DNA of 46,813 bases from a virus: positions 1 through 46,813 of the IMG/VR virus record IMGVR_UViG_3300025120_000103; one strand, 5' to 3'. How positions within the stretch are numbered: the stretch's first letter is position 1; the number at the start of each line of letters is the position of its first letter. The notes beneath the pieces were generated by a model that searched no databases, was not told the DNA's origin, and worked only from the letters and a program-made list of their open reading frames with translations. Of the stretch, positions 4,873 through 37,731 are shown piece by piece. A program made the translations under genes and the position numbers.

Positions 4873-7800
4873 ATGACAGTAGATAGAGTAAAATTACAGC
4901 AAATTGTTGCTAGTCAACTTCCTAGGTATGTTAGCGAAGACTTTCCTCTTCTAACAGATTTTTTAGAGCAGTACTATGTCTCTCTAGAATCACAAGGCGG
5001 TCCTTCAAACCTGATCAAAAATATTGATCAGTATGTGAAAGTTGATGAGTTAACTAATTTAGAGACTGAAACCACTCTAACTGAGGATATTGATTACTAT
5101 ACTAGAAGTGTAAAAGTAGAAAGTACTTATGGTTTTGTTGATACTGATGGTATTATCAAAATTGATGATGAGATTTTTCTCTATGAGACCAAAACACTTA
5201 CCTCTTTTGAAAACGTAAAGAGAGGATTTAGTGGAATTACTTCATATATTACTCCTGACAACCCTGACAGACTTACTTTTGAGACTACACAGAATCAATC
5301 TCACCAAACAGGGGCACATGTTCAGAACTTAAATGTTCTTTTTCTTCAACAATTCTTCAAAAAACTGAAAAAACAGGTAGTTCCTGGGTTTTCTGACAGA
5401 AATTTCTATACAGGATTGGATGAAAAGAACTTTATTTTCAATTCAGACAGTTTTTATGCCTCAAAAGGCACTGACCAGTCCTTTGAAATTCTCTTTAGGG
5501 CACTTTATGGCGAAGATGTAGAAGTAATTAAGCCATCTCAGTTCCTTTTGACGCCTTCTAATGCAAATTATAAGGTAACTAAGGACTTTGTTGTTGAGAA
5601 ATTGCAAGGTGATCCCCTTCAGTTACAAAATTTGACACTTTTCCAGCAATTGACTGGTGCTAGAGGTTCTGTTACTAATGTTCAACAGATCCCATATGAC
5701 AATTTTCAGTATTATCAGATAAGTATTGACTCTGGTTTCAATAGAGATAGTGATGTAACAGGTTCAATCTATGGTAAATTTGAGCCAGACCCCCAAACTA
5801 AGATTCTAAACCAAGTTGGAGCAGGTCAAACCTACCTTGATGTTGATTCTACAGTAGGTTTTCCACAAAGTGGTACTTTAGAAGTCGTTGATGTAGACTT
5901 AGAACTGCTTCGCTTGAAGTACGATGGAAAAACATCTACCCAATTCTTCAATGTAAGTGGTGTAGACAATGTGATTCTTAAAACTACTGACATTTCCCTT
6001 GATTCTTATGCATTTGCCTATGTTGGTATCCAAACTACAAAACAAGTTAAGGTTAGATTCACTGGTTCATTGAGTGATTTTGAGCAAAATGACAAAACTC
6101 ACTCATATAAGAAAGACGATACTATCCAATTAAGGTCTTTAGGTTATGAAGCACCTGGAAAGAAGAATAATAACTACTCTCTCAACATAAAAACCAACTG
6201 GCAAGTTAAAAAGACCACTTTATTGGATGCTAGTGCTTTCCAGTATGGGTTTGAGTTCTATAATACACATTTTTTACAAGAAGGATATAAAGTAGTCCTT
6301 GAAAATATTGATAAAACCATGTCTTTGCCTGGTATTATCTCTAGAATCCAATCTTCTAATGAAATTGTTGTAACTTTTCAGCAAAATTTCTTAACAACTG
6401 GTTCTTACACAATTGAAAACCAGACTTTAAAGGGAAATTCTATAAAATATCCATATTTGGAGAAATATACTGCAAATATTCAGAACACTTATGCAAAATA
6501 TGATGGTTCTACTCTTATTGCTTCAAATAGCATCCCTAAGTACAACAATTTGGAGACCAATCCATATGACAGAAGGATTGTTTTCAGTGCAACCTTACAA
6601 AGTACTGATATTTTAACATTACCTACTAATCAAACCACTATTCCTGACCACGCTTTCTATACAGGTGATGCATTATACTTAGAATCCAAAGGAGTTGGGT
6701 TTGAAGGTGTAGTATCAGGTGCATATTTCATCTATAGGGTAGATGAAAGTAGAATTAAACTTTCTAGGTCAAAAGCAGACCTTGCAAGAAAAATTTATAT
6801 CACTTTTAATGGTTCTGTAACAAATGCAGTTGTAACACTGCTTGATTTTTACCAAAAAGAGATTGCACCACAAGGAATTTATAGAGAAATTCCAAATCCA
6901 ATTAATGACAGTAAAAGATATATTACAAATGCTGGATTTAATGGAATTCTCAATAATGGTGTAGAAATTCTCAACTATAAATCTCAAAATAGTGTATATT
7001 ATGGAAATATTGAAGATTTCACCATTACTGCTGCTGGAAAAGGTTATGATGTCATCAATCCACCAGTTTTAATCATCCAAGATGATGTTGGTATTGGTGC
7101 AACTGGTGTTGTTAATGTAAAAGGACAACTTGAGAGACTTGATATCCTAGATAAAGGTCTTGGATACTATGAAGCACCATTTATCAGGATTTCTGGTGGT
7201 AATGGCACAGGTGCTGCAGCAGAAGCAAGGATGACTTCTATTAAGCATGAGAATTCATTCCTTGCTGATGGAACTTTAGAACAAACTAGACTTGATTTAA
7301 ATCAAATTTCATTTTCTAGTGACCACAAGTTCCTAGATGGTGAAAGTGTCATTTATCAACCAAGAAGTACAAAAGGAATTACTGGTTTAACCACTGATTC
7401 TGAATATTTCTGCTCTATTCATAGTCAGACAGCAATTAAACTTCATAATACAAAGACTGATGCTTTGGTTGGTATCAATACAGTTGATTTAATTGGATAT
7501 GGTGTAGGAACACAATTTATTGTAGCATCAGAACCCAAAAGTGTTGTCTCATCTGTCATTATTACCAATCCTGGTAAAAATTATGAGAGCAAGAAAAGAA
7601 CAATCCCACAGGCAGGCATTAACACTGCTCTAAACACTGTCAACATCAAAGGTCATGGTTATCAGTCCAAAGAGATTGTTAGATACAACCCTGGCAATCC
7701 TTTAATTGTTGGTCTTTCCAAAAAGACTGATTATTATGTTGTAAAAGTCACTGATGATGCATTCTCTCTGACTGAAGTTGGTATTGATACTATAGCTACT

Positions 7801-10800
7801 GATTATTATTTTAATAATGGCATAATTATTAACTTTACCCAACAAGGTGAGGGTTCATTTAACTATCAACCAATTACTGTTAGTGTTGAAGGTGCTGCTG
7901 CATCTTATGATAAGTCATTTGTTGAAGATTTCCAAGAATTGTTTGTTATTGAGTCCCCAATTGATAAAAACATCATTACTCCTGTTCAGGTTCTTGCTTG
8001 GACAGATACAGAGGCAGAAATTCTAAATTCTCTGACAAATGATGAATTCTATGTTCAAGTCTCTGCAGATTCTCACTGGTTAATTAGTGATGAACCATTT
8101 GTTGGCAATATTCTTCTTTATGATGCAGAATTGCAACCTATCTTTAGAGGTGGCATCCAATCTATTGACTTACTTAATGGTGGTGTAGGATATGGTTCAT
8201 CTGAGATTATTGATTTCAGAAGACAACCAAGTCTTCAGTTCCAATCTGGTACAGGTGCTGTTTTACAACCAATTATCTCCAATGGACAGATTTCAGAAGT
8301 TGTAGTTCTCTCTCCTGGTGTTGGTTATAACTCACCACCTGACCTTAATGTAATTAGCGCTAATGCCACTGGCAAATTTGCTGTTCTTACTCCTGTTTTG
8401 AATAATGGCAAAATTCAAAGCGTATTTGTTGTAAAAGGTGGATTGGGATATGAGTCAGGCAAGACATCTATTGATATTATTCCATCAGGTAGAGGTACAA
8501 GAACAAATGCCAATATCAGAGGATGGAATATAAACCTCTTTGAAAGATACCTTGATAATATCCTTGAGGATGATGGTATCTTAGCAGAAAATATTTCTAA
8601 TAAGGAATTGCAGTATTCTCACCTTTATGCTTCTAGAGCATTGAGGGAGTCATCTACTGCTATTGATGGATTTGATAAAGATAACAAACTTTATGGCACT
8701 TTTGATTTAAGAAAGAATATTGCTGAGGAAGAGATTGAGAATATCTACCACTCACCTATTCTTGGTTGGGCATATGATGGCAATCCAATTTATGGACCAT
8801 ATGGTTTTAAAAATCAAGATGGAACTGGGTTTGTTAAGAGAATGGTGTCTAGTTACAAACTTAAAACCACTCCTGTTAACAGACCATCATTCAATACCTA
8901 TCCTAATGGATTCTTTGTTGATGACTATATCTATGCTGCAGATGGTGACCTTGATGAGCACAATGGCAGATTCTGTGTCACACCCGATTTCCCAAATGGA
9001 ATATACGCATACTTCTGCACAATTAGTGAAGCTATTGATTCATCTGGACCTTTCCAGAAGTTTAGAAGACCTGTATTCCCATATGTAATTGGAAATACTT
9101 TTAGGTCTGTTCCTTCTGAATTTAACTACAAAGGAATATCCAATCAAACAGATTATAATATTGAAAGTAATGGTTGGTTTAGAAATACTACAAATTATTA
9201 TACTAATGCAGGTAGTAGTGGTTATGACTATATCTACAATTCTAATAATGTCAGAAAGCAATCTATTGATATTACAGCAACATCCAGAGGAACTGTTAAT
9301 AGTTTAACAATTATTGATGGTGGTGATAACTACCAGGTTAATGATACTATCATTCTTAATGAAACAGACACTCAGGGTAGAAACTGTAAGTGGAGGGTAA
9401 ATGAAATTGAAGGTAAGAGAGTTAATACTGTAAGTCTAGCAACAACTGCTTTCAACAATGTAACATTTGTTCCAAATGGCAATAAGTCAGGATTTGTAGC
9501 ATTTACTGAGGTTCCACATAAATTTGATACTAATGATATCATCAGTGTTGATAATTTAAGTGAGGACTTCAAAGGTTTCTCTGGTTCTTACAATATTGGT
9601 GTTACTACATCAAAATATCAATTGGTTATTGGTATCGCATCTGCCTCACAAACAGGTGTTGTAACCTTTATGAATATTAAAGGTATAGAAGGTTCTCTGC
9701 TTAAAGATAATGACATCCTTACAATTGAATCAGAAAGAATCAGAGTTCTTGAACTTGATAAACTCAACAGCAGAATTAAAATTCTAAGAGAGCAAGATAA
9801 TACAATTGGTGCTTCACACTCTGCTGGATTGTTGTTTAGAGAAGAGACAAATAAGTTTGTCTTTAATACTGGCATCACTACATCCAAGAAATTTAGATTT
9901 AATCAACAGTATTACTTTGACCCTCATGAGCAGGTAGGAGTAGGTTCACTTGCACAAGCAGGAGCAGGTGTCACTCTGGGTATCAAGAACCCTGGTGCTG
10001 GAACTACACTCAGATTTGTCAGAGAGCAGATGATTTATCTGCCTGGTCATGGAATGGCACCTAATACACCAGTTGTTTATTCTAGTGGTGGTAACGTAAA
10101 TCCAATGAGAGGTTGGAGTGGTATTGAGACATCATCAATATTTACTTTGGCAGATGGTCTCAACTTCTTTGCAACACCTCTTGATAATGACCATATTGGA
10201 ATTTCAACCAATAGAATTGGTCTTAACTCAGAAGGTCTCTTTATAGGTGCTGGAACAACATTAACTGATACAGGATTGCAAGCAGGTATTATTTTCTTTA
10301 CTAGTGTAGGAGCTGGTGATACTCATAGTTTCACTACAAATAGACTTAATGTTTTAAAAGGAAGAGTTTCTAAAAATGTTGTAACTGTATCAGTTGCTGA
10401 TACTCATGGATTGTCTACAAATGATTTTATCAACTTTGACCTTAATCCTAAGGACACTCAGACAATCAGTGTTGTATATAATGAGCATAACAGAAGGATG
10501 GTTTTTGATCCTGATGTTATTGAGGAAGCACAGGTAAATTCAGGCACTAGTTCATTCATTGTACCAAAAGACAAGTATTTACTTGGTGATAAGATCATCT
10601 ACTCTGCATTAGTACCATCTGATGGATTAGTTTCAGAGGATATGTATTATGTCTATCCTATTGAAGATAATAGGATTAAGTTGATTAAAGAAATATCTGA
10701 AATTAATAATGATTATCCTGCCTTTGTTAATATTGGCACTGCTAAGACTGCAACTTTCTCCAAAATCAATCCTAGATTGACTGTTCAGCAAAACAGAACT

Positions 10801-13800
10801 TATAAGTTTGATCTTTCTTCTCCCACTTTAGGGTTTACTAATGCTTTGACAAAGTTCTCTGCATTTAGTATGAAGATCACAACTGATGATGCTTATATTG
10901 ATGAATTCCTTGTAGGCGAAGGTTCAAATGCATTTGAAGTTATAAGAGATGGTGAGGTTGGTGTATCTACAGATGCATCACTGAGTTTGAGAATTAGTGC
11001 TAATGTGCCTAAGAATCTTTTCTATAAATTTGATATTGATAATATTGACATTTTACCATCTGTACAAAAACAATTAATTGTTGATAAGACTGTGCCACAG
11101 TTTAGTCAAATTAATCAGGTCCCTAGTAAGTATGATGGATCACATCAGGTTGTAGGTGTAGCAACAGATGCTTTCCAGTTCAATGTTTTCAATGTTAAAG
11201 ATCTAACAAATAATTATAATGAAGGCACTGCAAATATGAGTTATACTACTAACTCAAGATTTGCATATGGACCCATTCACTCAGTTAAGGTAATTGATAA
11301 AGGTGTTGGTTATCAATCACTTCCTGGTTTTGAGGGTGTTACTAGCAAAACAGGTACAGGTGCTTTAATTGAACCCAATAGCAATTCAATTGGTCAAATT
11401 TTAGATTTCAAAATCAATAATATTGGTTTTGGTTATCCCTCAGATAAAACTCTGAAAGCAGCAGGTAATACTCCTGAAATTCTTAAGATTGAACCCCTTG
11501 CTCAGTTTGATTACATTGGCATTACATCAGCAGGTGTAAATTACTTTGTAGCACCTGAATTGGTTGTAATTGATGGTTTATCTAAGAAGCAAATTACTGA
11601 TGTTCAACTTGATTTTGAACTTGGTGCTACAGAAGTAAAGATTCTTAAAAATACAATCTCACTTAATAATGTAACACCTGATATCCTTCCAATCAATAAT
11701 CCCAATGGTTTCTCCATTGGTTCAATGTCTTATTTTGAAAATAATAAGATTGTAAGACTGTATCTGAACAAATCATTCAGTACTCCTGAAGAATTCCCAT
11801 TTAAGGTTGGAGAAAAGATAATTGTTGAGAATATTGCCATTGGTTTCAACACAGATGGTAAAGGATACAATTCTGATAGTTATGAGTATGCACTCTTCCC
11901 ACTTACTGGTCTTGATGCCAAACTAGGTGGTTCAAATGGGTATGTTGAGTACAGTCTTGCTGACTATTTGTCTGCAAATGAATATCCTGGAAACGTAACA
12001 TCTATTGTTTCTGCTTATATTACTCCTAAGACATATTTCCCAATATTTGATATTGATTTAAAAGTATCTGACTTCTTTGATGGAGAAAGAGTAAGTAATG
12101 GGTTTGCAGATGGCACTGTTGAAAGATGGGATCCTATTAGTGAAACTCTATTTGTTTCATCCAACAAATCATTCCTTCCAGGCACTATTATTCAATCAGA
12201 CAGTTCACAAATCAAGTCAATTATTAAGTCAAGGACTAATTTCAATACAACTATTAAAATTGGTGCTGGTGCAACTGTTATTGATGGTTGGCAGACCAAT
12301 TCAGGTGTTCTGAATGACAATCTACAAGTCCTTCCTAACAATGAGTATTATCAAAACTTCTCATATTCACTTAAGTCAAGAATTGACCTTGAAACTTGGG
12401 AAGATGCAGTAAGTGCTCTTAATCATACTGCAGGTTTCAAAAAATATGCAGATTTGATCATTGAGAATGAAGCAGTAAGTTCTTGTACACCTGTTGAGAT
12501 TGATTTAGATACAACTGTTGATTTAATTGGTGAATTTAGTCTAAGTTGTTTCCCAGACTTTGATGGTGGAACTGAAAGAACTATTGATATACAAGGAAGT
12601 AAGATTATTTCTGATACCATAGTATTCTCCAATAAAATCCTTCTTGACTACTTTGAATCAAGAGGTAATAGAGTACTTAACCTCTCCTTAGGAGGTGGTG
12701 GTGGTGCTGGTGGCAGTCCCTTTGATGATGAACCAAGAGAAGAACCTTTTGAATCTATTGCTAACTATGAGAACAAATTTACTCATAATAAGATACTTAC
12801 TTTGGTTCAAGATGCCCAATTAAGAGATAGAAAGCAGTCAAGTATGTTGACTGTTATGCAAGATGGCACCCAAGGATATATCAACCAGTATGGTATGTTG
12901 GATACTGTCACACCTCTTGGTCATTTTGATTATAGAAACATTCAGAATGGAACTTGGTCACTTGATTTCTATCCAGTAACACCTCTCTACAATAACTATG
13001 AAGTTACAATCTTCTCATTCAGTCAACTTGACAATGTTTTGAGTATTGGAGCAACTGATGTTGGTAGTGTTGTAAGGATATCTACTGGTCAGACCGAAGT
13101 TGCAGCATCAAGTACAACAGAAGTTATTTCTATTGGTACAACTTATAGATCTGCTAAGGTCATTGCTCAGTTACATGATTTCCAAAATGACAAGTATTAT
13201 GGCAATGAAATTAATCTCCTTCATGATGGCACTAATGTTACATTAATGCAATATGGTGATATCACTTCATCCACTGAATTGGCAGGTATTTCTGGTTTTG
13301 GTACATTCATTGGTAGAATTGATAGTGGCAATATTGTTCTTGACTTCAAGTCAACTGTTGGTACTGCATTATCAGTCAATGCCATGGTCATTGCAATTAG
13401 TGACCAGAATGCATCTGGAATTGGAACAATTGACTTAGAAGTTTCAAATGTATCTTCTTACTCCAAGTCAATTGCTGCTTCTGCAACACCAATTGCAAAT
13501 ATTGTTGGTTCTTACTATGAACCTGACAGTTCTGGATACTTTGTTGTTTCTGTCGAGGATATCACAAATAATGAGTATGAATGTTTTGAGGTAATGTCAC
13601 TTGACAGTCTGTTTGAGGAAAACTTTGTTGAGTTTGCAAGAGTCAATACTGGCACATCTGGTCTTGGTACTGTTGGATTCACTTCAACTGGAAACAACAT
13701 CAATCTGACTTATACTCCTGTTCCAAACATTAATGTTGAGGTAAGAGCATTTGCTGTTACTAATCAAAACTATTTGAATGTTTCAGGTATCACATCTGTC

Positions 13801-16800
13801 AACTTAGAGAACAATATCCTCTTCTCTAAGCAAGGCACTTATACTGGTCAAGAGTTTGATAAAGCAACAGCATTCCCACTGTTGTTTGATGGAAATCCAG
13901 TCTTTGGTGGTCCATTCTTGGGTAATAATCCTGGTGTTGTCAATACAGCAACCAATCAAATTGTTATACCTAACCACAACTTTATAACTGGTGAGAAAGT
14001 TAAATATACTCCCTTCAATAAACTAAAAGTAGGAACTGAGAATGCAATTAGCATTGCCTCTACTGATGTTCCAGGTGTTGGTATTACTAACAAACTACCA
14101 GAAGATGTATATGCAATTAAGTATAGTGATGTGACTGTAGGATTTGCTAAGAGTGCTGCTGATGCTTTGGCAACTGTTCCCATTCCTCTAAATCTAACAT
14201 CAGTTGGTATTGGCAGTATTCACACTCTATTTGGTGCTAATGAAAATGCAAGATGCTTGATTGCAATTGACAATATGATTCAAGCACCTATTACTGAGGT
14301 GAAGATTGAAACACAATTGCTTTCTAATATCATTTTTGAACCCTCATTTAGGGTTGTTGGTATTCAGTCATTTAAATCAAATGACCTTATCCAAATTAAC
14401 AATGAAATTATGCTTCTTCAAAACATTGGAGTTGGCAGAACAAATAATTTCAACGTTGTCAGAGCACAAATGGGTACTGAAGTTGAAACCCATGTAATTG
14501 GAGATGTTGTTAAATTGCTAGGTGGCAACTACAACATCACTGAGAATACTATCCACTTTGCAGAAGCTCCTTATGGCAATACACCAATTGGAACCACTAC
14601 TCAGGGTCCAGATGAGGTAGATTGGCAGGGTATCACCACTTCATCTACCTTCCAGGGCAGAACCTTCATGAGAAGTGGTGTTCTTAATGGTGTAGATCAC
14701 ACATATAAGAATAACTACACATTTGATAATATTCAGTCTGAATTCAATGGATTTGATAATGAGTTTTTACTGACTATTAATGGTGGAGATAATATAGCAG
14801 GTTTTGCTACCAACCAGGCAATTGTCCTGAACTCAAATATTCTTCAGGAACCCACAGGTGCTCAAGAGTCAACAGGCGACTTTACTCTGAATGATAAAGT
14901 TGGTGTTACAACAATCACATATACAGGAACAAGTCAGTCATCTGAAAATGATCCTAACAGAGCAACTATCCCCAGAGGTGGTAACATCACTGCTGTTGGT
15001 TCAACACAAGGATCTGGATATCAACCATTAGTTGGTGCTGGTGCATCTGTATTTGTTAACTCGAGTGGTCAGATTTCATCTATTGCAATTGGCAATAGTG
15101 GTTCTGGTTATAGATCAGGCATCCAAACTCATGTCTCAGTTGGTATTCTGACATCTTCTACTGACAATCAACCTGTTATTGGAATTGGTACTGCAAATAT
15201 TGTAGGTGGCCATATTGATTCTATTGATCTTTACAATGTAGCATCAAACCTAGACCAATTCAACCCTCCTGTAGTTGTTATTGACAAACCACTTCCTTAT
15301 AGCAATCTTTCACTAGTTTATAGTGGAGGTAATGCAATAGAAGGTATTGGTACTGGTGCAAGAGTTGATATCACTGTTGGTCAAGGATCAAGTGTCATTG
15401 ACTTCACATTAATCCAAGGTGGTTTTGCTTATGGATTCAATGAAATATTGACAGTATCTGTTGGTGGAACACTTGGTATTCCTCTTACAAGTGGATTTAG
15501 TGGCAATGAATTTCAACTCACTGTTGATGATCTCTATCGTGATACCTTCAATGGTTGGACACTTGGTGAACTAGATGTATTTGACAAATTAGATCCATTA
15601 TTTGATGGTGAGACAACTAAGTTCAATCTTTCAATTGCTAGTGCATCATATGGTATTGAAACTGCTGATGGATCAAATGTTGATTTGAATCAGGCATTGA
15701 TTGTCACTATTAATGATGTTCTTCAAATTCCAGGCGAATCATACAATTTTGCAGGTGGTTCTATCATAGAATTCTCACAACCTCCTGCAAGGGGTGACAG
15801 TTCTAAGGTTATCTTCTACAAAGGAACACCAGAAGTTGATGTTGTATTTGTAGATATTCTTGAGACAGTTAAGGTTGGTGATACTCTCCAACTTATGAAT
15901 GATCCAGGAAAGGGTCAAAATAATTCTTTATTGCAAGAAAAGAGAACTGTTGTTGGTATCACTACCCTTGATACTGTCAAAACCTTCCCATATGCTGGTC
16001 CTGGTATTACTACTGACATTTCATTAGAGAGACCCATTGAATGGTGTAAGCAAAAGGATGATTTATTCATTGATGGTAGAGTAGTTGCCAAAGATAGAGT
16101 TGAGTATGAACCGTTCATCTATCCTGCTGCATATATTATTAATGATATTGGTCCTGGTGATGGATTCTGTTATGTTGATACAGTAAGACCTCTGTTTGAT
16201 TCAGCACCTGAGACTCAACTTATTGATTATCAATTTAAAGTCACATTTACTGATCAGACTGAAATTAAGACAGCAATTGCAACTGCATCTATTACTAATG
16301 GTTCTATTACTGGATTCAATCTTGTAGATGCAGGAAAGGGATATGCAACTCTCCCTACACCAGAAATTTCCATTGGTAATGCTGGATTTACTTCTACTGG
16401 TAGAGCAACAGCAACAGCATCTGCTATTGGAGATGTTGTTGGAAACTTGAATGTTATTAATCCAGGAGTAGGTTACACTGTTCTTCCTCCTATTATTATT
16501 GAAACACCACCAGCAAGAACTGAAACAGTTGGAGTTGATTCATACTTTGGTGATTATGGACAAATTGTTGGTGTTGCCCAATCAAATGGTGGATTGACAA
16601 CACTTGAATTCTACATTCCAGATGACTCATTTATGAGAGATCCTTACTATGTTGGAGTTGCTGTTACTTTATCAGAGATTGGTAAGAATGATTACTTTGT
16701 TGTCAATGAATCAAATGTTGGACTTTATAGCACTGTGTCTGATTTTGATGGCATTTATAGAGTTGAAAAAGTTTATGATTATATTTCTGATTTGACCAGT

Positions 16801-17115
16801 ATTGGTGCTGGAGTAACAATGGTAAGGAGAGTTGAAATTCAAGGTATTGGTGTTGGTTCTACCAACTTCTCATCAACATTAATTACTTTTGATAGTGATC
16901 TGCTTACTTGGGATAATAGGGTTGGATATGCTCTGGGAAGTGGTTTATTTGAAAGAAATAGAATTTATGGTGAATATACTTGGGGTAAAGTGAGTTTTAT
17001 AAACAGATCTCCTGTCACTGCAAAGAGATTTACTGCTTCATCATACCCTAATTTGGACAAATCCCCATTGATGACCAGATCTACAACCCTTAAATATAAT
17101 AATTACACTCCATAA
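4873..17115 (+). CDS. gp7: Giant baseplate wedge protein gp7 (4080 aa)
   Basis: Residues ~15-45 (LLTDFLEQYY, then NLIKNIDQY) and ~190-215 (FYASKGTDQSFEILFRALYG, followed by EDVEV) match what I recall of the C-terminal third of T4 gp7 (FYSTKGIEASYKFLFKVLYN, then EEVEI). That region initiates wedge assembly with gp10/gp8/gp6. Position after gp6 agrees. T4 gp7 is 1032 aa; here about 3800 residues follow the T4-like part. These contain about 15 G-x-G-Y beta repeats (e.g. residues ~720, 760, 1100, 1146, 1186, 2141, 2181, 3376, 3406, 3816, 3861), seven HxF/HG-x-x-x-x-x-x-V-x-Y repeats (~592 to ~3035), three D/N-E-I/M repeats (~96, ~1615, ~3176), a YHYH-type domain (~1290-1395) and a degenerate cupredoxin-like segment (~1970-2060). 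It is probably an elongated peripheral baseplate or fibre-anchoring arm. CpG is very rare in the gene. Confidence 0.85.
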   Translation: MTVDRVKLQQIVASQLPRYVSEDFPLLTDFLEQYYVSLESQGGPSNLIKNIDQYVKVDELTNLETETTLTEDIDYYTRSVKVESTYGFVDTDGIIKIDDEIFLYETKTLTSFENVKRGFSGITSYITPDNPDRLTFETTQNQSHQTGAHVQNLNVLFLQQFFKKLKKQVVPGFSDRNFYTGLDEKNFIFNSDSFYASKGTDQSFEILFRALYGEDVEVIKPSQFLLTPSNANYKVTKDFVVEKLQGDPLQLQNLTLFQQLTGARGSVTNVQQIPYDNFQYYQISIDSGFNRDSDVTGSIYGKFEPDPQTKILNQVGAGQTYLDVDSTVGFPQSGTLEVVDVDLELLRLKYDGKTSTQFFNVSGVDNVILKTTDISLDSYAFAYVGIQTTKQVKVRFTGSLSDFEQNDKTHSYKKDDTIQLRSLGYEAPGKKNNNYSLNIKTNWQVKKTTLLDASAFQYGFEFYNTHFLQEGYKVVLENIDKTMSLPGIISRIQSSNEIVVTFQQNFLTTGSYTIENQTLKGNSIKYPYLEKYTANIQNTYAKYDGSTLIASNSIPKYNNLETNPYDRRIVFSATLQSTDILTLPTNQTTIPDHAFYTGDALYLESKGVGFEGVVSGAYFIYRVDESRIKLSRSKADLARKIYITFNGSVTNAVVTLLDFYQKEIAPQGIYREIPNPINDSKRYITNAGFNGILNNGVEILNYKSQNSVYYGNIEDFTITAAGKGYDVINPPVLIIQDDVGIGATGVVNVKGQLERLDILDKGLGYYEAPFIRISGGNGTGAAAEARMTSIKHENSFLADGTLEQTRLDLNQISFSSDHKFLDGESVIYQPRSTKGITGLTTDSEYFCSIHSQTAIKLHNTKTDALVGINTVDLIGYGVGTQFIVASEPKSVVSSVIITNPGKNYESKKRTIPQAGINTALNTVNIKGHGYQSKEIVRYNPGNPLIVGLSKKTDYYVVKVTDDAFSLTEVGIDTIATDYYFNNGIIINFTQQGEGSFNYQPITVSVEGAAASYDKSFVEDFQELFVIESPIDKNIITPVQVLAWTDTEAEILNSLTNDEFYVQVSADSHWLISDEPFVGNILLYDAELQPIFRGGIQSIDLLNGGVGYGSSEIIDFRRQPSLQFQSGTGAVLQPIISNGQISEVVVLSPGVGYNSPPDLNVISANATGKFAVLTPVLNNGKIQSVFVVKGGLGYESGKTSIDIIPSGRGTRTNANIRGWNINLFERYLDNILEDDGILAENISNKELQYSHLYASRALRESSTAIDGFDKDNKLYGTFDLRKNIAEEEIENIYHSPILGWAYDGNPIYGPYGFKNQDGTGFVKRMVSSYKLKTTPVNRPSFNTYPNGFFVDDYIYAADGDLDEHNGRFCVTPDFPNGIYAYFCTISEAIDSSGPFQKFRRPVFPYVIGNTFRSVPSEFNYKGISNQTDYNIESNGWFRNTTNYYTNAGSSGYDYIYNSNNVRKQSIDITATSRGTVNSLTIIDGGDNYQVNDTIILNETDTQGRNCKWRVNEIEGKRVNTVSLATTAFNNVTFVPNGNKSGFVAFTEVPHKFDTNDIISVDNLSEDFKGFSGSYNIGVTTSKYQLVIGIASASQTGVVTFMNIKGIEGSLLKDNDILTIESERIRVLELDKLNSRIKILREQDNTIGASHSAGLLFREETNKFVFNTGITTSKKFRFNQQYYFDPHEQVGVGSLAQAGAGVTLGIKNPGAGTTLRFVREQMIYLPGHGMAPNTPVVYSSGGNVNPMRGWSGIETSSIFTLADGLNFFATPLDNDHIGISTNRIGLNSEGLFIGAGTTLTDTGLQAGIIFFTSVGAGDTHSFTTNRLNVLKGRVSKNVVTVSVADTHGLSTNDFINFDLNPKDTQTISVVYNEHNRRMVFDPDVIEEAQVNSGTSSFIVPKDKYLLGDKIIYSALVPSDGLVSEDMYYVYPIEDNRIKLIKEISEINNDYPAFVNIGTAKTATFSKINPRLTVQQNRTYKFDLSSPTLGFTNALTKFSAFSMKITTDDAYIDEFLVGEGSNAFEVIRDGEVGVSTDASLSLRISANVPKNLFYKFDIDNIDILPSVQKQLIVDKTVPQFSQINQVPSKYDGSHQVVGVATDAFQFNVFNVKDLTNNYNEGTANMSYTTNSRFAYGPIHSVKVIDKGVGYQSLPGFEGVTSKTGTGALIEPNSNSIGQILDFKINNIGFGYPSDKTLKAAGNTPEILKIEPLAQFDYIGITSAGVNYFVAPELVVIDGLSKKQITDVQLDFELGATEVKILKNTISLNNVTPDILPINNPNGFSIGSMSYFENNKIVRLYLNKSFSTPEEFPFKVGEKIIVENIAIGFNTDGKGYNSDSYEYALFPLTGLDAKLGGSNGYVEYSLADYLSANEYPGNVTSIVSAYITPKTYFPIFDIDLKVSDFFDGERVSNGFADGTVERWDPISETLFVSSNKSFLPGTIIQSDSSQIKSIIKSRTNFNTTIKIGAGATVIDGWQTNSGVLNDNLQVLPNNEYYQNFSYSLKSRIDLETWEDAVSALNHTAGFKKYADLIIENEAVSSCTPVEIDLDTTVDLIGEFSLSCFPDFDGGTERTIDIQGSKIISDTIVFSNKILLDYFESRGNRVLNLSLGGGGGAGGSPFDDEPREEPFESIANYENKFTHNKILTLVQDAQLRDRKQSSMLTVMQDGTQGYINQYGMLDTVTPLGHFDYRNIQNGTWSLDFYPVTPLYNNYEVTIFSFSQLDNVLSIGATDVGSVVRISTGQTEVAASSTTEVISIGTTYRSAKVIAQLHDFQNDKYYGNEINLLHDGTNVTLMQYGDITSSTELAGISGFGTFIGRIDSGNIVLDFKSTVGTALSVNAMVIAISDQNASGIGTIDLEVSNVSSYSKSIAASATPIANIVGSYYEPDSSGYFVVSVEDITNNEYECFEVMSLDSLFEENFVEFARVNTGTSGLGTVGFTSTGNNINLTYTPVPNINVEVRAFAVTNQNYLNVSGITSVNLENNILFSKQGTYTGQEFDKATAFPLLFDGNPVFGGPFLGNNPGVVNTATNQIVIPNHNFITGEKVKYTPFNKLKVGTENAISIASTDVPGVGITNKLPEDVYAIKYSDVTVGFAKSAADALATVPIPLNLTSVGIGSIHTLFGANENARCLIAIDNMIQAPITEVKIETQLLSNIIFEPSFRVVGIQSFKSNDLIQINNEIMLLQNIGVGRTNNFNVVRAQMGTEVETHVIGDVVKLLGGNYNITENTIHFAEAPYGNTPIGTTTQGPDEVDWQGITTSSTFQGRTFMRSGVLNGVDHTYKNNYTFDNIQSEFNGFDNEFLLTINGGDNIAGFATNQAIVLNSNILQEPTGAQESTGDFTLNDKVGVTTITYTGTSQSSENDPNRATIPRGGNITAVGSTQGSGYQPLVGAGASVFVNSSGQISSIAIGNSGSGYRSGIQTHVSVGILTSSTDNQPVIGIGTANIVGGHIDSIDLYNVASNLDQFNPPVVVIDKPLPYSNLSLVYSGGNAIEGIGTGARVDITVGQGSSVIDFTLIQGGFAYGFNEILTVSVGGTLGIPLTSGFSGNEFQLTVDDLYRDTFNGWTLGELDVFDKLDPLFDGETTKFNLSIASASYGIETADGSNVDLNQALIVTINDVLQIPGESYNFAGGSIIEFSQPPARGDSSKVIFYKGTPEVDVVFVDILETVKVGDTLQLMNDPGKGQNNSLLQEKRTVVGITTLDTVKTFPYAGPGITTDISLERPIEWCKQKDDLFIDGRVVAKDRVEYEPFIYPAAYIINDIGPGDGFCYVDTVRPLFDSAPETQLIDYQFKVTFTDQTEIKTAIATASITNGSITGFNLVDAGKGYATLPTPEISIGNAGFTSTGRATATASAIGDVVGNLNVINPGVGYTVLPPIIIETPPARTETVGVDSYFGDYGQIVGVAQSNGGLTTLEFYIPDDSFMRDPYYVGVAVTLSEIGKNDYFVVNESNVGLYSTVSDFDGIYRVEKVYDYISDLTSIGAGVTMVRRVEIQGIGVGSTNFSSTLITFDSDLLTWDNRVGYALGSGLFERNRIYGEYTWGKVSFINRSPVTAKRFTASSYPNLDKSPLMTRSTTLKYNNYTP

Positions 17116-17152: not shown

Positions 17153-19525
17153 ATGGCATATCAAGGTATTAATACAGGAACCTCCCCTAATGATGGTTTA
17201 GGGGATACTCTTCTAGATGGTGGTGTTAAGATTAACAGCAACTTCTCTGAATTGTACAATATTATAGGTGATGGCACCAGCACATTCGTTGGTGTTGTTA
17301 CTCAAATCTCTGCAGGAACAAATGTAAGCATCTCAACTGCTTATGGTTCTGTTGAGGTATCTGCACCTACACCAACCAATCTACGAACTGATAACCTTAG
17401 GGTTACTGGAATTACCACCCTTGGTGCTACCAATGGCATTGGTACAGTAACAATGGGTATTGGTGTCACTGCCCTCTATGTTGATGGTAGTGCCAGAGTC
17501 ACGGGAGTCCTTACTGTTGGCACTGGTTCTATCACACTTGAGAGTGACAGGGTACACGTAGGTTCTGGTATTACAATTGATGCTAACAACAACACTATGG
17601 TGTTGGGTGATAACATTACAATGACTGCATCCTCAGGTGCTGTTGATGTTGCTTTAATGACAGCAGGTTCTGCTACTGTTACTGGTCATTCTACAGCAAC
17701 AACTCTTGCTAGTTCTGGTACTGCCACATTTGCTGGTGATGTAAGTCTTGGTTCATCTATTACATTATCTGACACTAAGGAGATCTTACTTGGAGATAGT
17801 GCAGAATTTTCACTTTCACATGGTGATTCTACTGGAAACCTGATTGAGTCAAAATCAGGTGCCTTTAATTTGAAGGGCAACACCCTCAATATTATTGCTG
17901 GTACAGCAAATACAGTTGTTGCTGCAACAAACCCAGATGGTAATTATGGTATTGAGTTCTACTATCTCAATGACAAGAAATTAGAAACTAGGTCATCAGG
18001 TGTAAGAGCACTTGGTGGTTTCCAGGTTATATCTGGTATTACAACACTAGGTGTTGTGACTGCTACTACCTATTATGGAGATGGTAGTAATTTAGCAGGT
18101 GTTGGCAACACTTTTGATGTATCTACAGATACATTAGTTGTTTCTGGTATTACAACATTAGGTGTTGTGACTGGTGCTACTTATTTTGGTGATGGTTCAA
18201 ACCTGTCTGGAATTGCAGGTATCAGTACTACAAAAATCAATACTACTGAACTCAACAATAGTGGAATTACAACCCTTACAGGTCTTGTAGAAGTTGGTTC
18301 TGGTGTCACTATAAGTGGCATTGCAACATTCAACCAAGGTTTCCAAGTTGGTGGAACTCTTAATGTAAATGAAAGTCCTACTGCACTTTTCTTTGATGCT
18401 AATGCTTCTGACAAATTCCAATTAAAGAATGCACTTGGCACAGTTGACCTTCAAGGTACTGGTCAAGTTAGAGCTTTGAAAGCCAACTCTTCTGAACTTT
18501 TATTCCGTGGCATTGCTGATGGATCATTTGAAGCATATTGGGATGGAAATAGAAAGTTTGCAACTTGCAGTATTGGAGCAACAGTTACTGGTCAATTATC
18601 AGCAGGAAACTTTATTGGTGATGGTTCAGGACTAACAGGTGTTGTTGGTTCTGGTTCTGGTATTATTGTTAATGATAGTGATACACCTATTGGAACTGCA
18701 GGAACAATTAATTTTGGTACTGGTCTTAGTGTATCACCAGCATCTGCAGGTGTAGTTACTGTTACTTCTAGTGGTGGTGCTGGTGGTGGTCAACCAGAAA
18801 TAACATGGACTCTTGGTAACAATGGTAGCAGTGATTATACATTTACTGGCAGTGGATTCTCTGGTGCTACAAATGATCCAACTTTATATCTTGTAAGAGG
18901 TCAAACATATAAGTTTGATAATCAGAGTACTGGACATCCATTTAGAATTCAATCTACTACTGCAACACCAGGTGGTGGAACACAGTACAATACTGGGGTA
19001 ACAAATCAAGATGCTACTGGTGGTACAGCAACTAATGTATTGACATTTATTGTACCAATGGATGCTCCTGATACACTGTATTATCAGTGTACATCACATT
19101 CTACAATGTTTGGTGCTATCAATGTTATTGGTGGTCCAGTGCTGCCCTCAAGATCATCTGTCTCTGGTGCTACTGCTAGCATTGCAGATAATGTTATTGG
19201 CAACATTGATATCACTGGATTTAAATCATATAATCTATTGAAGGTTGGTCTGTCAACAGCAGGTTGGTTTAGACTATATACAGATGGCGCATCTAGAACT
19301 GCAGATGTTGGAAGGAGTGTTGGAATTGATCCAAACCCAGGAAGTGGAGTTATTGCTGAAGTTGTAACCACTGGCATTTCAACTACACAATTAGTTTCTC
19401 CCTTTGTTCCAGGTGGCAATATGGATGAACCTGCAACTACAACAATGTACGCATCAGTCAAAAACCTATCTGGTGTAACACAGTCTATATCAGTAAACTT
19501 AACACTTCTCCAACTCGAGGAATAA
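17153..19525 (+). CDS. Tail fibre-like protein with cupredoxin-like domain
   Basis: A 790-residue virion protein. The N-terminus (GINTGTSPNDGLGDTLLDGG, then NSNFSELY) is the anchor type seen on many phage tail fibre proteins. Residues ~60-500 are beta-repeat fibre sequence, with two near-identical 26-residue units containing SGITTLGVVT and Y-x-GDGSNL (292-317 and 329-354). Residues ~581-655 resemble a plastocyanin-type domain: TYKFDNQSTGHPF with H595, then LYYQCTSHSTMFG with C646, H649 and M652, the usual four type-1 copper ligands. The last ~130 residues form a small domain that could be the distal tip. The role is probably host recognition or baseplate attachment; the receptor is unknown. 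It is preceded by a late promoter and an AAAAGGA ribosome-binding site. Confidence 0.75.
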   Translation: MAYQGINTGTSPNDGLGDTLLDGGVKINSNFSELYNIIGDGTSTFVGVVTQISAGTNVSISTAYGSVEVSAPTPTNLRTDNLRVTGITTLGATNGIGTVTMGIGVTALYVDGSARVTGVLTVGTGSITLESDRVHVGSGITIDANNNTMVLGDNITMTASSGAVDVALMTAGSATVTGHSTATTLASSGTATFAGDVSLGSSITLSDTKEILLGDSAEFSLSHGDSTGNLIESKSGAFNLKGNTLNIIAGTANTVVAATNPDGNYGIEFYYLNDKKLETRSSGVRALGGFQVISGITTLGVVTATTYYGDGSNLAGVGNTFDVSTDTLVVSGITTLGVVTGATYFGDGSNLSGIAGISTTKINTTELNNSGITTLTGLVEVGSGVTISGIATFNQGFQVGGTLNVNESPTALFFDANASDKFQLKNALGTVDLQGTGQVRALKANSSELLFRGIADGSFEAYWDGNRKFATCSIGATVTGQLSAGNFIGDGSGLTGVVGSGSGIIVNDSDTPIGTAGTINFGTGLSVSPASAGVVTVTSSGGAGGGQPEITWTLGNNGSSDYTFTGSGFSGATNDPTLYLVRGQTYKFDNQSTGHPFRIQSTTATPGGGTQYNTGVTNQDATGGTATNVLTFIVPMDAPDTLYYQCTSHSTMFGAINVIGGPVLPSRSSVSGATASIADNVIGNIDITGFKSYNLLKVGLSTAGWFRLYTDGASRTADVGRSVGIDPNPGSGVIAEVVTTGISTTQLVSPFVPGGNMDEPATTTMYASVKNLSGVTQSISVNLTLLQLEE
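18026..18103 (+). repeat. Fibre repeat unit, copy 1 (26 codons)
   Basis: Encodes V-I-SGITTLGVVT ... YYGDGSNLAGV. It matches the unit at 18137-18214 at 21 of 26 residues, offset by exactly 37 codons. Similar units recur in the 906 aa protein. Confidence 0.75.
18137..18214 (+). repeat. Fibre repeat unit, copy 2 (26 codons)
   Basis: Encodes V-V-SGITTLGVVT ... YFGDGSNLSGI, the second copy of the unit at 18026-18103. Confidence 0.75.
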
Positions 19526-19531
19526 GGAACC

Positions 19532-21067
19532 ATGGCAGTAACAACAGAAACGTACTCAGCAGCTGCTGGATGGAGCAGAAGTGATGTGATTACACTTCTC
19601 GAGAGCGGATTTACATTTGCGGGAATGCATGGTGGACCAATAGCAGGTATTACCAGTACTGTTAAAACCCATTTTGGTGGTGGTACAGTAGGGTCATCTA
19701 GTACTGTTTATTATGATGTTCCAGTAGCTACAACTAGTGGAATTGGAACAGGTGCAACATTTAATGTGCAAAGAAGTAGTGGAAATATTGCTGATATTAA
19801 GGTAAATAAAGTTGGTTATAATTATGCTGAGAGTGAAAATGTAACATTAGATCCACAACATATTGGTGGTACACAAAATTCAGCAACTACTGCAACTGCT
19901 ATTGTTGGTGTAATGGGTCAAGGAAGTCCAGAAAGTTTTGGCACAACTAGCACTTTCTTCAGAAAGCAAATGCTTTCTTCTTATGATAGCAATAGACCTT
20001 GGGGTGCCTTAAGGCAGGTTAGAGATCAAGGTAAAATATATGGAACAACATATAGAGCATTTAAAATTCATGATGATTATAGAATGAATGTTTTGGTTGG
20101 ACCATCACTTTCTGCCAATGAAGATGATCAAACTAGTGGTTATGGAATGTATGGAGATTCCTTTAGAGGAACTGAACAGTTAGATGTAACCAATTCATAT
20201 GGTGACAGATTAGATACAGATGCAAATACTACCGCCCAGGTAAATAATAATGATAATTTTCAGTATGCAACTTCTTCATCACCAACAACACATGGTTTAA
20301 ATTTAAATGTTTACAGATCATCAATAGATCCTAATTTTGCTGTATTTTCTTGGCAACAACCATCAATTGACGGAACTTTGACTGATTCTACATTTAGCAC
20401 TTTTATAGTACACAACTTTGATAGTTCATTGTGGGATTATGATGAAGTATTTACAGCAGGTCACACTTTCATAACGCCCAGTTCGGTAGCAAATACAAGT
20501 CAAGCATCTAGTATTGGATTGAGTTTTAATACAATTTTGAGTGGAAATAAGTATCAAACTTATCAAAATATATGCACCAGAAGTGCTGAATCTGGATATA
20601 TTCAGATATATAATACCTCTCATAGAGGAACACCTTACGTCAGTACCAGATATGTTAGCACTTCATCAGATAATCAAAATTCTGCACAGGGTGATGGTTA
20701 TGGGTATTCTCAAAATTCACAATACAATGATACTAGAATTTTCACTAGAGTTGGTGGATTTAAGGATGGTGGTAGGATAGTCAATGATTATTCTGATCCA
20801 AATTATAATAATGGAAATCATCATCCAATCACACATCGTAAGAGTGTAATTAAGGGTATTCCTATCAATGCTGGTTTGGTTCCAAATCCATATTATATTC
20901 CAGATGACTTTTGTATAATTGATATGACACTTGACCAATCTGAGCAAAATATAAGACAGGGTGATACTATTACTGTAAGTGGTTCAGAAATTTATAAAGT
21001 CATCACCGGTGGATATAATAAGTATGAACAAACTAGTGGCATGTTCTTCTGTGCTAGGGTAGCTTAA
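19532..21067 (+). CDS. Probable virion protein, 511 aa
   Basis: A 511-residue protein of unknown function in the baseplate/fibre block. The N-terminus (AAAGWSRSDVITLLESGFTF) is followed by one G-Y repeat of the type found in gp7 (residues ~85-130: VNKVGYNYAESENVTLDPQ then a T/A-rich end). The remaining ~370 residues are rich in N, S, Y and D with no recognisable enzyme motif, as in phage structural proteins. It has no membrane segment. It starts seven bases after the previous gene with a good ribosome-binding site (TAAGGA) and ends in a TAATG overlap with the next gene, so the three genes from 17153 probably share the late promoter at 17118. I recognise it only as a marine T4-like phage structural type. 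Confidence 0.65.
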   Translation: MAVTTETYSAAAGWSRSDVITLLESGFTFAGMHGGPIAGITSTVKTHFGGGTVGSSSTVYYDVPVATTSGIGTGATFNVQRSSGNIADIKVNKVGYNYAESENVTLDPQHIGGTQNSATTATAIVGVMGQGSPESFGTTSTFFRKQMLSSYDSNRPWGALRQVRDQGKIYGTTYRAFKIHDDYRMNVLVGPSLSANEDDQTSGYGMYGDSFRGTEQLDVTNSYGDRLDTDANTTAQVNNNDNFQYATSSSPTTHGLNLNVYRSSIDPNFAVFSWQQPSIDGTLTDSTFSTFIVHNFDSSLWDYDEVFTAGHTFITPSSVANTSQASSIGLSFNTILSGNKYQTYQNICTRSAESGYIQIYNTSHRGTPYVSTRYVSTSSDNQNSAQGDGYGYSQNSQYNDTRIFTRVGGFKDGGRIVNDYSDPNYNNGNHHPITHRKSVIKGIPINAGLVPNPYYIPDDFCIIDMTLDQSEQNIRQGDTITVSGSEIYKVITGGYNKYEQTSGMFFCARVA

Positions 21068-34678: not shown

Positions 34679-35011
34679 ATGGCTGTACCAGCAATCAATA
34701 TCTCAATAGATAAAAGCACTTCTTTTTCACAAGATTTTATTGTGAAGAATAGTGACCAAACATCTATGAATTTAACTGGATATACTGCTACTTCAAAGAT
34801 TAGGAAGTATCCAGAAGACTCAACTTCTAATAATTTTACCTGTGGCATAACATCATCCACTGGTACTATAAAAGTTTCAATGGGTGCTTCTACTACTGCA
34901 TTGCTAGCAAGTGGTAGAAACTATTATGATATTATAATTACATCAGGAGTAGGAACTGTCACAAAAGTGTATGAAGGCACTGCAATGGTAACTGCTACTG
35001 TATCTGCATAA
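34679..35011 (+). CDS. Small beta-rich virion-type protein, 110 aa
   Basis: A 110-residue protein, all-beta in appearance, with an Ig-like or upper-baseplate-domain pattern. It starts AVPAINISIDKSTSFSQDF, has LTGYTATSKIRKYP near residues 32-45 and YYDIIITSGVGTVTKVYEGT near 82-101. This type is common in T4-like marine phages between the terminase genes. I know of no proven function; a virion decoration or fibre-adaptor role is an inference from the fold pattern. It ends in a TAATG overlap with the 906 aa fibre-like gene, so the two are probably made together. Confidence 0.7.
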   Translation: MAVPAINISIDKSTSFSQDFIVKNSDQTSMNLTGYTATSKIRKYPEDSTSNNFTCGITSSTGTIKVSMGASTTALLASGRNYYDIIITSGVGTVTKVYEGTAMVTATVSA

Positions 35012-37731
35012 TGGATAATCTTGGAGATTTCTTTTCTTCTATAGGAGAAGAGAAAAAGAAGAAGAAAGAAAAGACCAAGGAATTAATTGGGGATGTATCC
35101 CTAGACGACCTTTTTAGCAATCTCAAAGAAGAAAAAAGTAAACTTCAAAAAAAAGTTGCAAAAAAAGCAAAAGAAAAAGAAGAATTATTAAAACAAGCAC
35201 AGATATTTGAATCATTTTTATTTAATGAGACACCAAAGGTAAAAAAAGATACTCAAAAAGAAGTAAAAATTCTTGAGAAAGGTCTTTTAAACTTAAAAAA
35301 TACATCTTATAAGTCTATCGATAGACTTATGAAAAGTATTTCTAAAAAATATGATATTACCCCACTTGAATTGCACAATCAATTCAAAGAAAAGCATGGG
35401 TCAATTCCTGACGATTGGATAAAACACCAAAAAGAAGAAGTAGATACTAGTGATTGGAGAGATGAATATGTACCAAATGATGTAGAATCTGTAGATATTA
35501 TTACACCAGAACCATTAGAAGCATCAGAAGGTATTGGTAGTAAATTAGTATCTAAAGAAGAAACTACTATTGACAAGTCTCTTCAAATTCTAGATCAACT
35601 TGTCACTGAAGAAGAAAAAATAAATGAATCTGAAACTGAAATTGCTCGTCTCAAACGTGAGATGGACCAACTTCGTAAGATGGTCAATGAATCCACTAGG
35701 ATTGCTAGCTCTCAAGGTGGTGGGGGAGAAGTTCGCTTAGAATTTTTAGATGATGTTGACAGAGATTCTGCAAAGGTAGATGGTCAAGCTCTTGTATGGG
35801 ATTCTAGTGCTAGCACTCTTGGAAAATTTGTTGGTTCTGATTATATTGCATTTTCTGGATATGCTCACACTGCTGGCATATCAACAATATCACAAGGATT
35901 GATTGGAACACCAGATATTGACGTTGACGTTATAACTGCAAACTCAGCAATTTTTTCTGGGAATGTTTCTGTTGCTGGCACTCTTACCTATGAAGATGTC
36001 ACTAACATTGATTCAATTGGATTAATTACAGCTAGAAGTGGAATCAAAGTTGGAAGTGGTATCACATTTGAACCAAATGGCCAAGCAACTTTTGCAGGAA
36101 TAATTACTGCATCACAATTCTCAGGTTATAATCATCTAGTTGCTCCATATGGTCCTACAACAACCATCAATGTTCAAGTAGCGACAAAGACATCTGCCCA
36201 CAGATACTTTGGTACTGGAAGTGGTCAGGGGTATGTTTTAGATGGTATAGAATCTCCATTTCTTACACTTACACCAGGAAGAACATATCGTTTTTCTGGA
36301 TCAGTTGGTGGTAGTCATCCATTCAGATTTTATCTTGATGCTGCAAAATCAACCCAATACAATACAGGTGTTACTGTAGGATCTGGTTATGTTGAACTAG
36401 AAGTAACAGACACTACACCAACAGTTTTACATTATCAGTGTGCTGCTCATGGTTACATGGGCAATTCTGTACAGGTTAATTCAAGTAATTCAATTTTACT
36501 GAATAGTCAGAATGCATCCCATTACTTAGATTATAATAATTTTACCAATACACCAACAATACCAACTAACAATAACCAACTTACAAATGGTGCTGGTTAC
36601 ATTACCAGTGCAGATGGTGGTAATGCTGATCAATTAGATGGCCAAGAGGGAACATACTACCTAAACTACAACAATTTTACAAATAAACCCACAATACCAA
36701 CCAACAATAATGAGTTGACTAATGGTGCTGGATTTATTACCACATCATTTACTAACACCAATCAATTAACAAATGGTGCTGGATTTATCACTGGAGTATC
36801 CACATTCTCTGGAAATTATAATAATCTGACAAATAAACCCACAATACCAACCAACAATAATGAGTTGACTAATGGTGCTGGATTTATTACAAATAATGTA
36901 AGTGGAACTCTTACTGCAACAGCATTTAGTGGTGATGGTTCTGGTCTTACAAATGTAGGTATGGACACATCAAATGTGTCTGCTAATACTTTAGTTGTGT
37001 CAGGTGTATCGACACTTGGTGTTGTAACTGGTGCTACTTACTATGGTGATGGTTCAAATTTAATTGGTGTTGCTAATACGGCAAACGTTACATCAAATAC
37101 TTTGGTTGTAGTAGGTGTTGCAACCTTCTTTGGTAATGTTACAATTGGTGGCACTCTAACTTATGAGGATGTAACTGATATTGATTCTGTTGGTATCATA
37201 ACAGCAAATAATGGTGTCAATATTGCTGGTGGTGGGCTTCAGGTTGTTGGTATTACCACAATTAATAGTGACTTGAGAGGTAGTGGTACTGTTAATATTT
37301 TAGGTATTAATTCTGTTACTGCCACATCGTTCCATGGAGATGGTTCTGGTTTAACAAACGTAGGTATGGACACATCAAATGTGTCTGCTAATACTTTAGT
37401 TGTGTCTGGAGTATCAACAGTAGGTGTTGTTACCGGAGCAACATCTATTCAGGCAACAACATACTATGGTGATGGAAGTAATCTCACTGGTATTAATGCC
37501 GGTGCAGGTGGTACTGCAAATGTATCCTCAAGAACAATCCAATCGGGCATCATTACTGCAGTAGACCAATTTTACCCTCCAGCACTTACCTCAGTAGAAA
37601 GAGATGGGTTATCCTTTAATGTTGGAGCATTTATTTTCAATGAGACAGAAAACAAACTCCAGATGTATCTTGGGGGGCGATGGAGAAATCTTGCCTTTGA
37701 ACTTGATTCATATACTTTAGTTGGATTGTGA
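35011..37731 (+). CDS. Fibre-like protein with coiled coil and cupredoxin-like domain
   Basis: A 906-residue virion-type protein. Residues 1-70 are highly charged (EEKKKKKEKTKELIG) and residues ~195-230 form a heptad coiled coil (ARLKREMDQLRKMVNESTR). A fibre region follows from ~245. Residues ~420-490 form a plastocyanin-like domain: YRFSGSVGGSHPFRF with H436, then LHYQCAAHGYMGN with C477, H480 and M483. Residues ~505-635 are Asn/Thr-rich repeats (PTIPTNNNELTNGAGFIT), including two exact 62-bp DNA repeats. Further on are GDGSNL/GDGSGL units shared with the 790 aa protein. The C-terminal ~50 residues (LQMYLGGRWRNLAFELD) look like a fibre tip domain. It is likely a trimeric fibre, although it lies between the terminase genes. 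Confidence 0.75.
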   Translation: MDNLGDFFSSIGEEKKKKKEKTKELIGDVSLDDLFSNLKEEKSKLQKKVAKKAKEKEELLKQAQIFESFLFNETPKVKKDTQKEVKILEKGLLNLKNTSYKSIDRLMKSISKKYDITPLELHNQFKEKHGSIPDDWIKHQKEEVDTSDWRDEYVPNDVESVDIITPEPLEASEGIGSKLVSKEETTIDKSLQILDQLVTEEEKINESETEIARLKREMDQLRKMVNESTRIASSQGGGGEVRLEFLDDVDRDSAKVDGQALVWDSSASTLGKFVGSDYIAFSGYAHTAGISTISQGLIGTPDIDVDVITANSAIFSGNVSVAGTLTYEDVTNIDSIGLITARSGIKVGSGITFEPNGQATFAGIITASQFSGYNHLVAPYGPTTTINVQVATKTSAHRYFGTGSGQGYVLDGIESPFLTLTPGRTYRFSGSVGGSHPFRFYLDAAKSTQYNTGVTVGSGYVELEVTDTTPTVLHYQCAAHGYMGNSVQVNSSNSILLNSQNASHYLDYNNFTNTPTIPTNNNQLTNGAGYITSADGGNADQLDGQEGTYYLNYNNFTNKPTIPTNNNELTNGAGFITTSFTNTNQLTNGAGFITGVSTFSGNYNNLTNKPTIPTNNNELTNGAGFITNNVSGTLTATAFSGDGSGLTNVGMDTSNVSANTLVVSGVSTLGVVTGATYYGDGSNLIGVANTANVTSNTLVVVGVATFFGNVTIGGTLTYEDVTDIDSVGIITANNGVNIAGGGLQVVGITTINSDLRGSGTVNILGINSVTATSFHGDGSGLTNVGMDTSNVSANTLVVSGVSTVGVVTGATSIQATTYYGDGSNLTGINAGAGGTANVSSRTIQSGIITAVDQFYPPALTSVERDGLSFNVGAFIFNETENKLQMYLGGRWRNLAFELDSYTLVGL
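36679..36740 (+). repeat. Exact 62-bp direct repeat, copy 1
   Basis: Identical to 36829-36890, exactly 150 bp (50 codons) apart and in frame. It encodes the TNKPTIPTNNNELTNGAGFI repeat of the 906 aa protein. A diverged third copy lies near 36540-36608. Confidence 0.9.
36829..36890 (+). repeat. Exact 62-bp direct repeat, copy 2
   Basis: Second copy of the repeat at 36679-36740. Confidence 0.9.
36955..37001 (+). repeat. Exact 47-bp direct repeat, copy 1
   Basis: Identical to 37360-37406, 405 bp (135 codons) apart, in frame. It encodes VGMDTSNVSANTLVVS. The flanking GDGSGLTN codons also match with few changes. Confidence 0.9.
37360..37406 (+). repeat. Exact 47-bp direct repeat, copy 2
   Basis: Second copy of the repeat at 36955-37001. 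Confidence 0.9.

Follow-up and report, generated by a model that had tools for sequence, protein, structure and literature searches.

The 790-residue gp9/gp10-like protein encoded in the 46,813-nucleotide stretch of viral DNA analysed here (the window) very probably contains a cupredoxin domain with a type-1-like set of copper ligands, located by modelling at residues ~549–659. A preliminary description had noticed a copper-site motif in this protein, and the four residues it named, H595, C646, H649 and M652, are all encoded in the 790-residue open reading frame (17153–19525; Table 1). Ligand conservation, profile searches and the predicted fold bear out its central claim of a cupredoxin-type domain with all four type-1 copper ligands, here on a tail or baseplate protein. 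The domain is likely to bind copper in nature. Many phages have related domains, with these four residues kept, on their structural proteins, and their particles may therefore carry copper.

Table 1. Positions of the carrier protein, its domains, the predicted copper ligands and the second cupredoxin domain in the window.
Feature	Position	Strand	Basis
gp9/gp10-like baseplate wedge/tail-fibre connector, 790 aa	17153..19525	+	Pfam, PHROG, synteny
N-terminal T4 gp9/gp10-like attachment domain, residues ~1–104	17153..17464	+	Pfam; alignment with RN05-S, S-B43, S-B05, P-TIM68
Predicted cupredoxin domain, residues ~549–659, eight predicted strands	18797..19129	+	AlphaFold2, Foldseek, alignment A1
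H595, first predicted copper ligand, in GHPF	CAT 18935–18937	+	Invariant in A1; aligns with the plastocyanin ligand His of PPHN
C646, predicted thiolate copper ligand	TGT 19088–19090	+	Conservation, plastocyanin profile alignment
H649, second predicted His ligand	CAT 19097–19099	+	Conservation, plastocyanin profile alignment
M652, predicted axial ligand	ATG 19106–19108	+	Conservation, plastocyanin profile alignment
C-terminal domain behind the cupredoxin, phrog_15343/9627	19130..19522	+	PHROG match
Second predicted cupredoxin domain, residues ~383–491 of a 906-aa tail-fibre protein	36157..36483	+	A1 profile

The terminase and portal proteins of the window are 90% and 82% identical, respectively, to those of S-B43/RN05-S-type Synechococcus phages. 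On these identities and the gene content, the window is the structural-gene block of a T4-like cyanophage, probably one of the Kyanoviridae, and the nearest relatives found for the carrier phage are S-B43, RN05-S and P-TIM68. Residues 4–104 of the carrier protein match the Pfam domain T4_gp9_10_N (PF07880) with 38.2 bits against a cut-off of 25, and comparison of the whole protein with PHROG gives phrog_677 ('baseplate wedge tail fiber protein connector', E 1e-46). A 4080-residue gp7-like giant, the gp9-like protein and gp8 follow one another in the window, and the same gp7–gp9–gp8 order is found in P-TIM68 and RN05-S. By its N-terminal domain and its placement between gp7 and gp8, the protein belongs to the T4 gp9/gp10 family. 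It is extended beyond that architecture by long repeats of fibre-like type, by the cupredoxin and by one more domain at the C-terminus, which it shares with tail-fibre proteins (for example, the 'long tail fiber proximal subunit' of S-SCSM1). The earlier label of tail fibre-like protein needs correction: the protein is a gp9/gp10-like baseplate connector with fibre-like repeats and not a simple tail fibre.

Several other genes of the window have features of their own. The 511-residue open reading frame between gp9 and gp8 (19532–21067) has no Pfam or PHROG match and is missing at that place in P-TIM68, S-B05 and RN05-S. The gp7-like baseplate wedge protein (4873–17115) contains a YHYH domain at residues 1292–1385 (PF14240, E 3e-27). 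A 217-residue protein (1553–2206) matches phrog_3704, 'ferredoxin', and is a possible auxiliary metabolic gene product beside the baseplate genes. The tail sheath protein (41833–44277), at 814 residues, far exceeds the 496-position PHROG model that it matches end to end, which makes an inserted domain probable from its length.

We asked how closely the four ligands are kept. The 790-residue protein has just two cysteines (472 and 646) and five histidines (135, 179, 223, 595 and 649). When its own residues were shuffled 20,000 times, C..H..M arose in 0.02% of the shuffles, and C..H..M together with a histidine at the right upstream distance in none of them. A tblastn search with residues ~544–666 retrieved at least 357 phage records, nearly all from Synechococcus or Prochlorococcus phages and mostly annotated gp9; the usual annotation of the domain-bearing structural proteins is 'baseplate wedge tail fiber connector' or hypothetical. 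IMG/VR was searched with six peptides, five without any ligand residue and the sixth with M652 only, and every one of the 85 tblastn segments from 80 loci has H/C/H/M. When 43 divergent copies were aligned (A1, mean column identity 38%), only six columns proved invariant: Y24, H57, Y106, C108, H111 and M114. Four of them are the ligands, and the other two are tyrosines; by simple arithmetic, six columns drawn at random from the 118 would contain all four ligands with a probability of ~2 in a million. All four are likewise kept in 208 of 217 viral, phage and bacterial copies, down to roughly 25–30% identity. Conservation of H/C/H/M in homologues, which the preliminary description had set as a test beforehand, therefore holds.

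The exceptions are informative about the site. In a single copy from Acidobacteria, the axial Met is replaced by Gln, which is the axial ligand of stellacyanin-type proteins. The S-B43 copy (L168/L188) has lost H, C and H together, with F, A and V instead, and reads GFPF...QASNVAGM, and it is still recognisable as a member of the domain family despite the missing ligands. Hence, copper is not strictly needed for the fold, and a stability role for the metal is weakened. A related question is which metal the intact site holds, since in vitro a Cys/His/His/Met site can also accept other soft metals. The site could accordingly bind zinc, or Cu(I) only, or be mostly empty in nature; the fold, the loop position and the four ligands including an axial Met are together the signature of type-1 copper, and we regard this alternative as unlikely.

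The fold evidence points the same way. An AlphaFold2 model of the domain has eight strands, with a pLDDT of 90.1 and a pTM of 0.82, and the best 50 PDB matches to it in Foldseek are all cupredoxin-fold proteins, at moderate TM-scores of ~0.5; they include NirK, rusticyanin, AcoP and laccase domains. The predicted fold, by which the copper-site proposal was to be judged, is thus a cupredoxin-like barrel. In the numbering of A1, the model places H57 in the loop before strand 59–62, C108 at the end of strand 103–108, and H111 and M114 in the loop before strand 115–121. These predicted positions on the secondary structure are those of cupredoxins and agree with the ligands meeting in space. The model also matched Pithovirus- and Marseillevirus-like 'beta-sandwich proteins' in BFVD (A0A481Z6J5, A0A481YVH3 and others).

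With the single sequence, a PDB search gave weak matches to antibody domains only; the 43-sequence A1 profile then gave 55 matches, mostly cupredoxins, among them nitrite reductases (NirK), plastocyanin, pseudoazurin, rusticyanin, auracyanin, amicyanin and CoxII. The best of these, 6hbe, has a CSIHPYM segment that aligns without gaps with the phage loop. In hhalign, the H, C, H and M of cyanophage PetE plastocyanins fall in register with the phage ligands (E 0.0019, at a low probability of 14.5%), which likewise agrees with ligands that meet in space. Pfam Copper-bind (PF00127) scores 13.7 bits on the window protein, below its curated cut-off of 21.2, and a homologous second copy in a P-SSM2 tail spike passes that cut-off with 23.3 bits. 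Other Pfam families considered for the domain, CBM_4_9, At5g54830-like and DUF4352, were set aside, their matches to single members being weak or scattered. The weak CBM_4_9 match (E 0.039) and the antibody-domain matches would speak for a non-metal beta-sandwich, Ig-like or carbohydrate-binding-like, in which the motif is coincidental. Against this, exactly the four ligands are invariant and both profile and fold searches give cupredoxins, and we consider a coincidence of this kind very improbable.

We next compared the domain with known cupredoxins. Its ligand loop reads CTSHSTM, that is, C-x2-H-x2-M, and this short loop is of the amicyanin type. Cyanophage PetE plastocyanins read CGPHQGAGM, or C-x2-H-x4-M, so the original attribution of the spacing to plastocyanin and halocyanin was inexact. 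The likeness to amicyanin is confined to the loop, and we do not claim membership of the amicyanin subfamily; 2ux6, a pseudoazurin with an engineered amicyanin loop, is among both the sequence-profile and the fold matches. Amicyanin and the C-terminal domains of some copper nitrite reductases share with the phage domain the fold, the H...C-x2-H-x2-M set and the loop length, but they are periplasmic electron carriers or parts of enzymes, whereas the phage domain is flanked by tail domains in a virion protein. Plastocyanin shares the cupredoxin profile and has its ligands in register, but is a free secreted photosynthesis protein with PPHN around the first His and the longer loop. With its C-x2-H-x2-M loop and its internal position in a virion protein, the phage domain falls outside the plastocyanin subfamily. 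Syn9, P-SSM2, S-SSM4 and S-CAM8 carry petE as a separate gene. An origin by capture of a host or phage petE was rejected on two grounds: in the phages with PetE, this protein has a gene of its own and a different loop, and the domain has its nearest relatives among other virion domains and exported proteins of bacteria.

The domain recurs well beyond the window protein. It forms the C-terminus of a ~400-residue gp9 in the typical cyanomyoviruses Syn9, S-SSM4, S-CAM8 and P-SSM7, and searches of 12 whole phage records, all picked for having a match, gave between one and four copies in each of the 12. Further carriers are gp7 of P-HM1, a pelagiphage tail fibre, a subtilisin-like protein, spikes (with two copies in one P-SSM2 spike) and podovirus fibres, and the carriers span many ocean and freshwater phages. 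The window itself holds a second copy in a 906-residue tail-fibre protein (35011–37731, phrog_30742), found with A1 by hmmsearch at 74.7 bits (E 4e-25 for the protein alone, 1.5e-22 for all window open reading frames). Its predicted ligands are H436, C477, H480 and M483, and C477 is the sole cysteine of that protein.

Alignment with the window protein showed that its gp9 orthologues in the closest relatives, S-B43, S-B05 and RN05-S, have no cupredoxin domain at their ends. The domain is therefore not needed for baseplate assembly in general, and an essential part in gp9 is ruled out. The genomes of the same three phages have one domain each, with like scores, the S-B43 copy being the one without H/C/H. 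On this comparison of sequences, the domain is an optional, exchangeable module.

Relatives of the domain also occur in cellular genomes. A scan of GTDB genomes with A2, a subset of A1, gave 77 loci, some of which are clearly of phage origin, such as L129 with its gp9-like N-terminus. Bacterial exported proteins of Flavobacteriaceae, PS1/OCS116 and Myxococcales belong to the same domain family and have the same ligands, mostly at 42–64% identity to the phage-family query; unlike the phage virion carriers, they are cellular proteins, many apparently lipoproteins or secreted. Many of the Flavobacteriaceae relatives are in proteins with lipoprotein-like leaders, the predicted mark of extracytoplasmic sites. 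PS1/OCS116 Alphaproteobacteria have ~430-residue proteins in which two cupredoxin domains from different branches stand in tandem (loci L084, L105–L107, L111, L115, L116, L123–L125, L130, L131, L133, L134 and L136). In a domain tree made by a quick method from 114 columns, bacterial and viral copies are interleaved and the two window copies lie far apart; because many of its forks are unresolved, we do not read a direction of transfer from it.

Taken together, we propose an optional, exposed type-1 copper module that is filled after lysis and serves adhesion or stability, an explanation that, as a whole, we hold about as probable as its negation. The module would sit on the C-terminal part of the gp9/gp10-like connector and therefore should lie outside the virion near the fibre attachment point; by analogy with T4, we infer both its surface exposure and its copy number on the virion. 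The host cytoplasm, where phage proteins fold, is poor in copper, so the metal would most likely be loaded after lysis, from the lysate or the water. The metal would then rigidify an exposed, optional surface-interaction domain and not serve a metabolic electron-transfer chain. The recurrence of the domain on unrelated virion proteins, its optional presence and its membership of a family shared with exported bacterial proteins make a surface-interaction or stability role the likeliest, and we put this role at slightly short of an even chance.

Two more active uses of the copper are possible, but less supported than such a surface-interaction or stability role. Type-1 sites are tuned for one-electron transfer, and in T4, gp9 is part of the route by which the long fibres signal to the baseplate. 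Both points would suit a redox switch: the Cu(II)/Cu(I) site would detect a reducing host surface and take part in triggering the gp9 or baseplate change, or would swap electrons with host envelope proteins. However, close relatives dispense with the domain, and its occurrence on many unrelated virion proteins (gp7, spikes, podovirus fibres) gives it no fixed place in a trigger path, so that a switch seems decidedly improbable.

The other such use is a copper counterpart of the iron 'Ferrojan horse', with virion copper as a lure or ligand for a metal-uptake protein of the host surface. Iron binding through HxH motifs has already been proposed for marine phage tail fibres (PMC11705849), which favours this reading, as do the strictly kept ligand site and the several copies per phage genome. 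Iron-binding HxH fibres (T4 gp37; alterophage R22Y, PMC11705849) likewise carry a metal site on a phage adsorption structure, but the window protein differs from them in fold, ligands and expected metal, and none of its five histidines forms an HxH motif, which places it outside that group. Few sites are available per virion, no known host copper receptor is linked to the domain here, gp9 of close Synechococcus-infecting relatives is without the domain, and the domain is shared by phages that infect different hosts and by exported proteins of bacteria. A copper lure is, on balance, rather unlikely.

A protective role was also considered, with the domain as a scavenger of copper or reactive oxygen in the surroundings of the virion or the lysing cell. 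Copper is toxic to picocyanobacteria and the ligand site is conserved, as such a role would have it; the stoichiometry is much too low for copper buffering, though, and type-1 sites are not, to our knowledge, known for superoxide dismutation. We give this role very little credence, and the adhesion or stability module remains our preferred reading.

The cupredoxin fold is already known, and Pfam recognises one copy of the domain, in the P-SSM2 tail spike. A search of the literature available without subscription returned no description of cupredoxin or plastocyanin-like domains in phage tail or cyanophage structural proteins, and two cyanophage genome papers name plastocyanin solely as the petE gene. 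Marine and freshwater phages might even use redox-active type-1 copper centres, filled after lysis, on their adsorption apparatus to recognise or sense the host surface. We regard this as a long shot; if true, virions with such host-sensing centres would be copper-protein particles and would count among the biologically relevant copper ligands of the ocean. Few viruses in the ocean are as common as cyanophages. If their sites hold copper, phage particles would be assemblies of metalloproteins that supply strong organic copper ligands, and the four residues would offer a defined target for asking whether copper affects adsorption.
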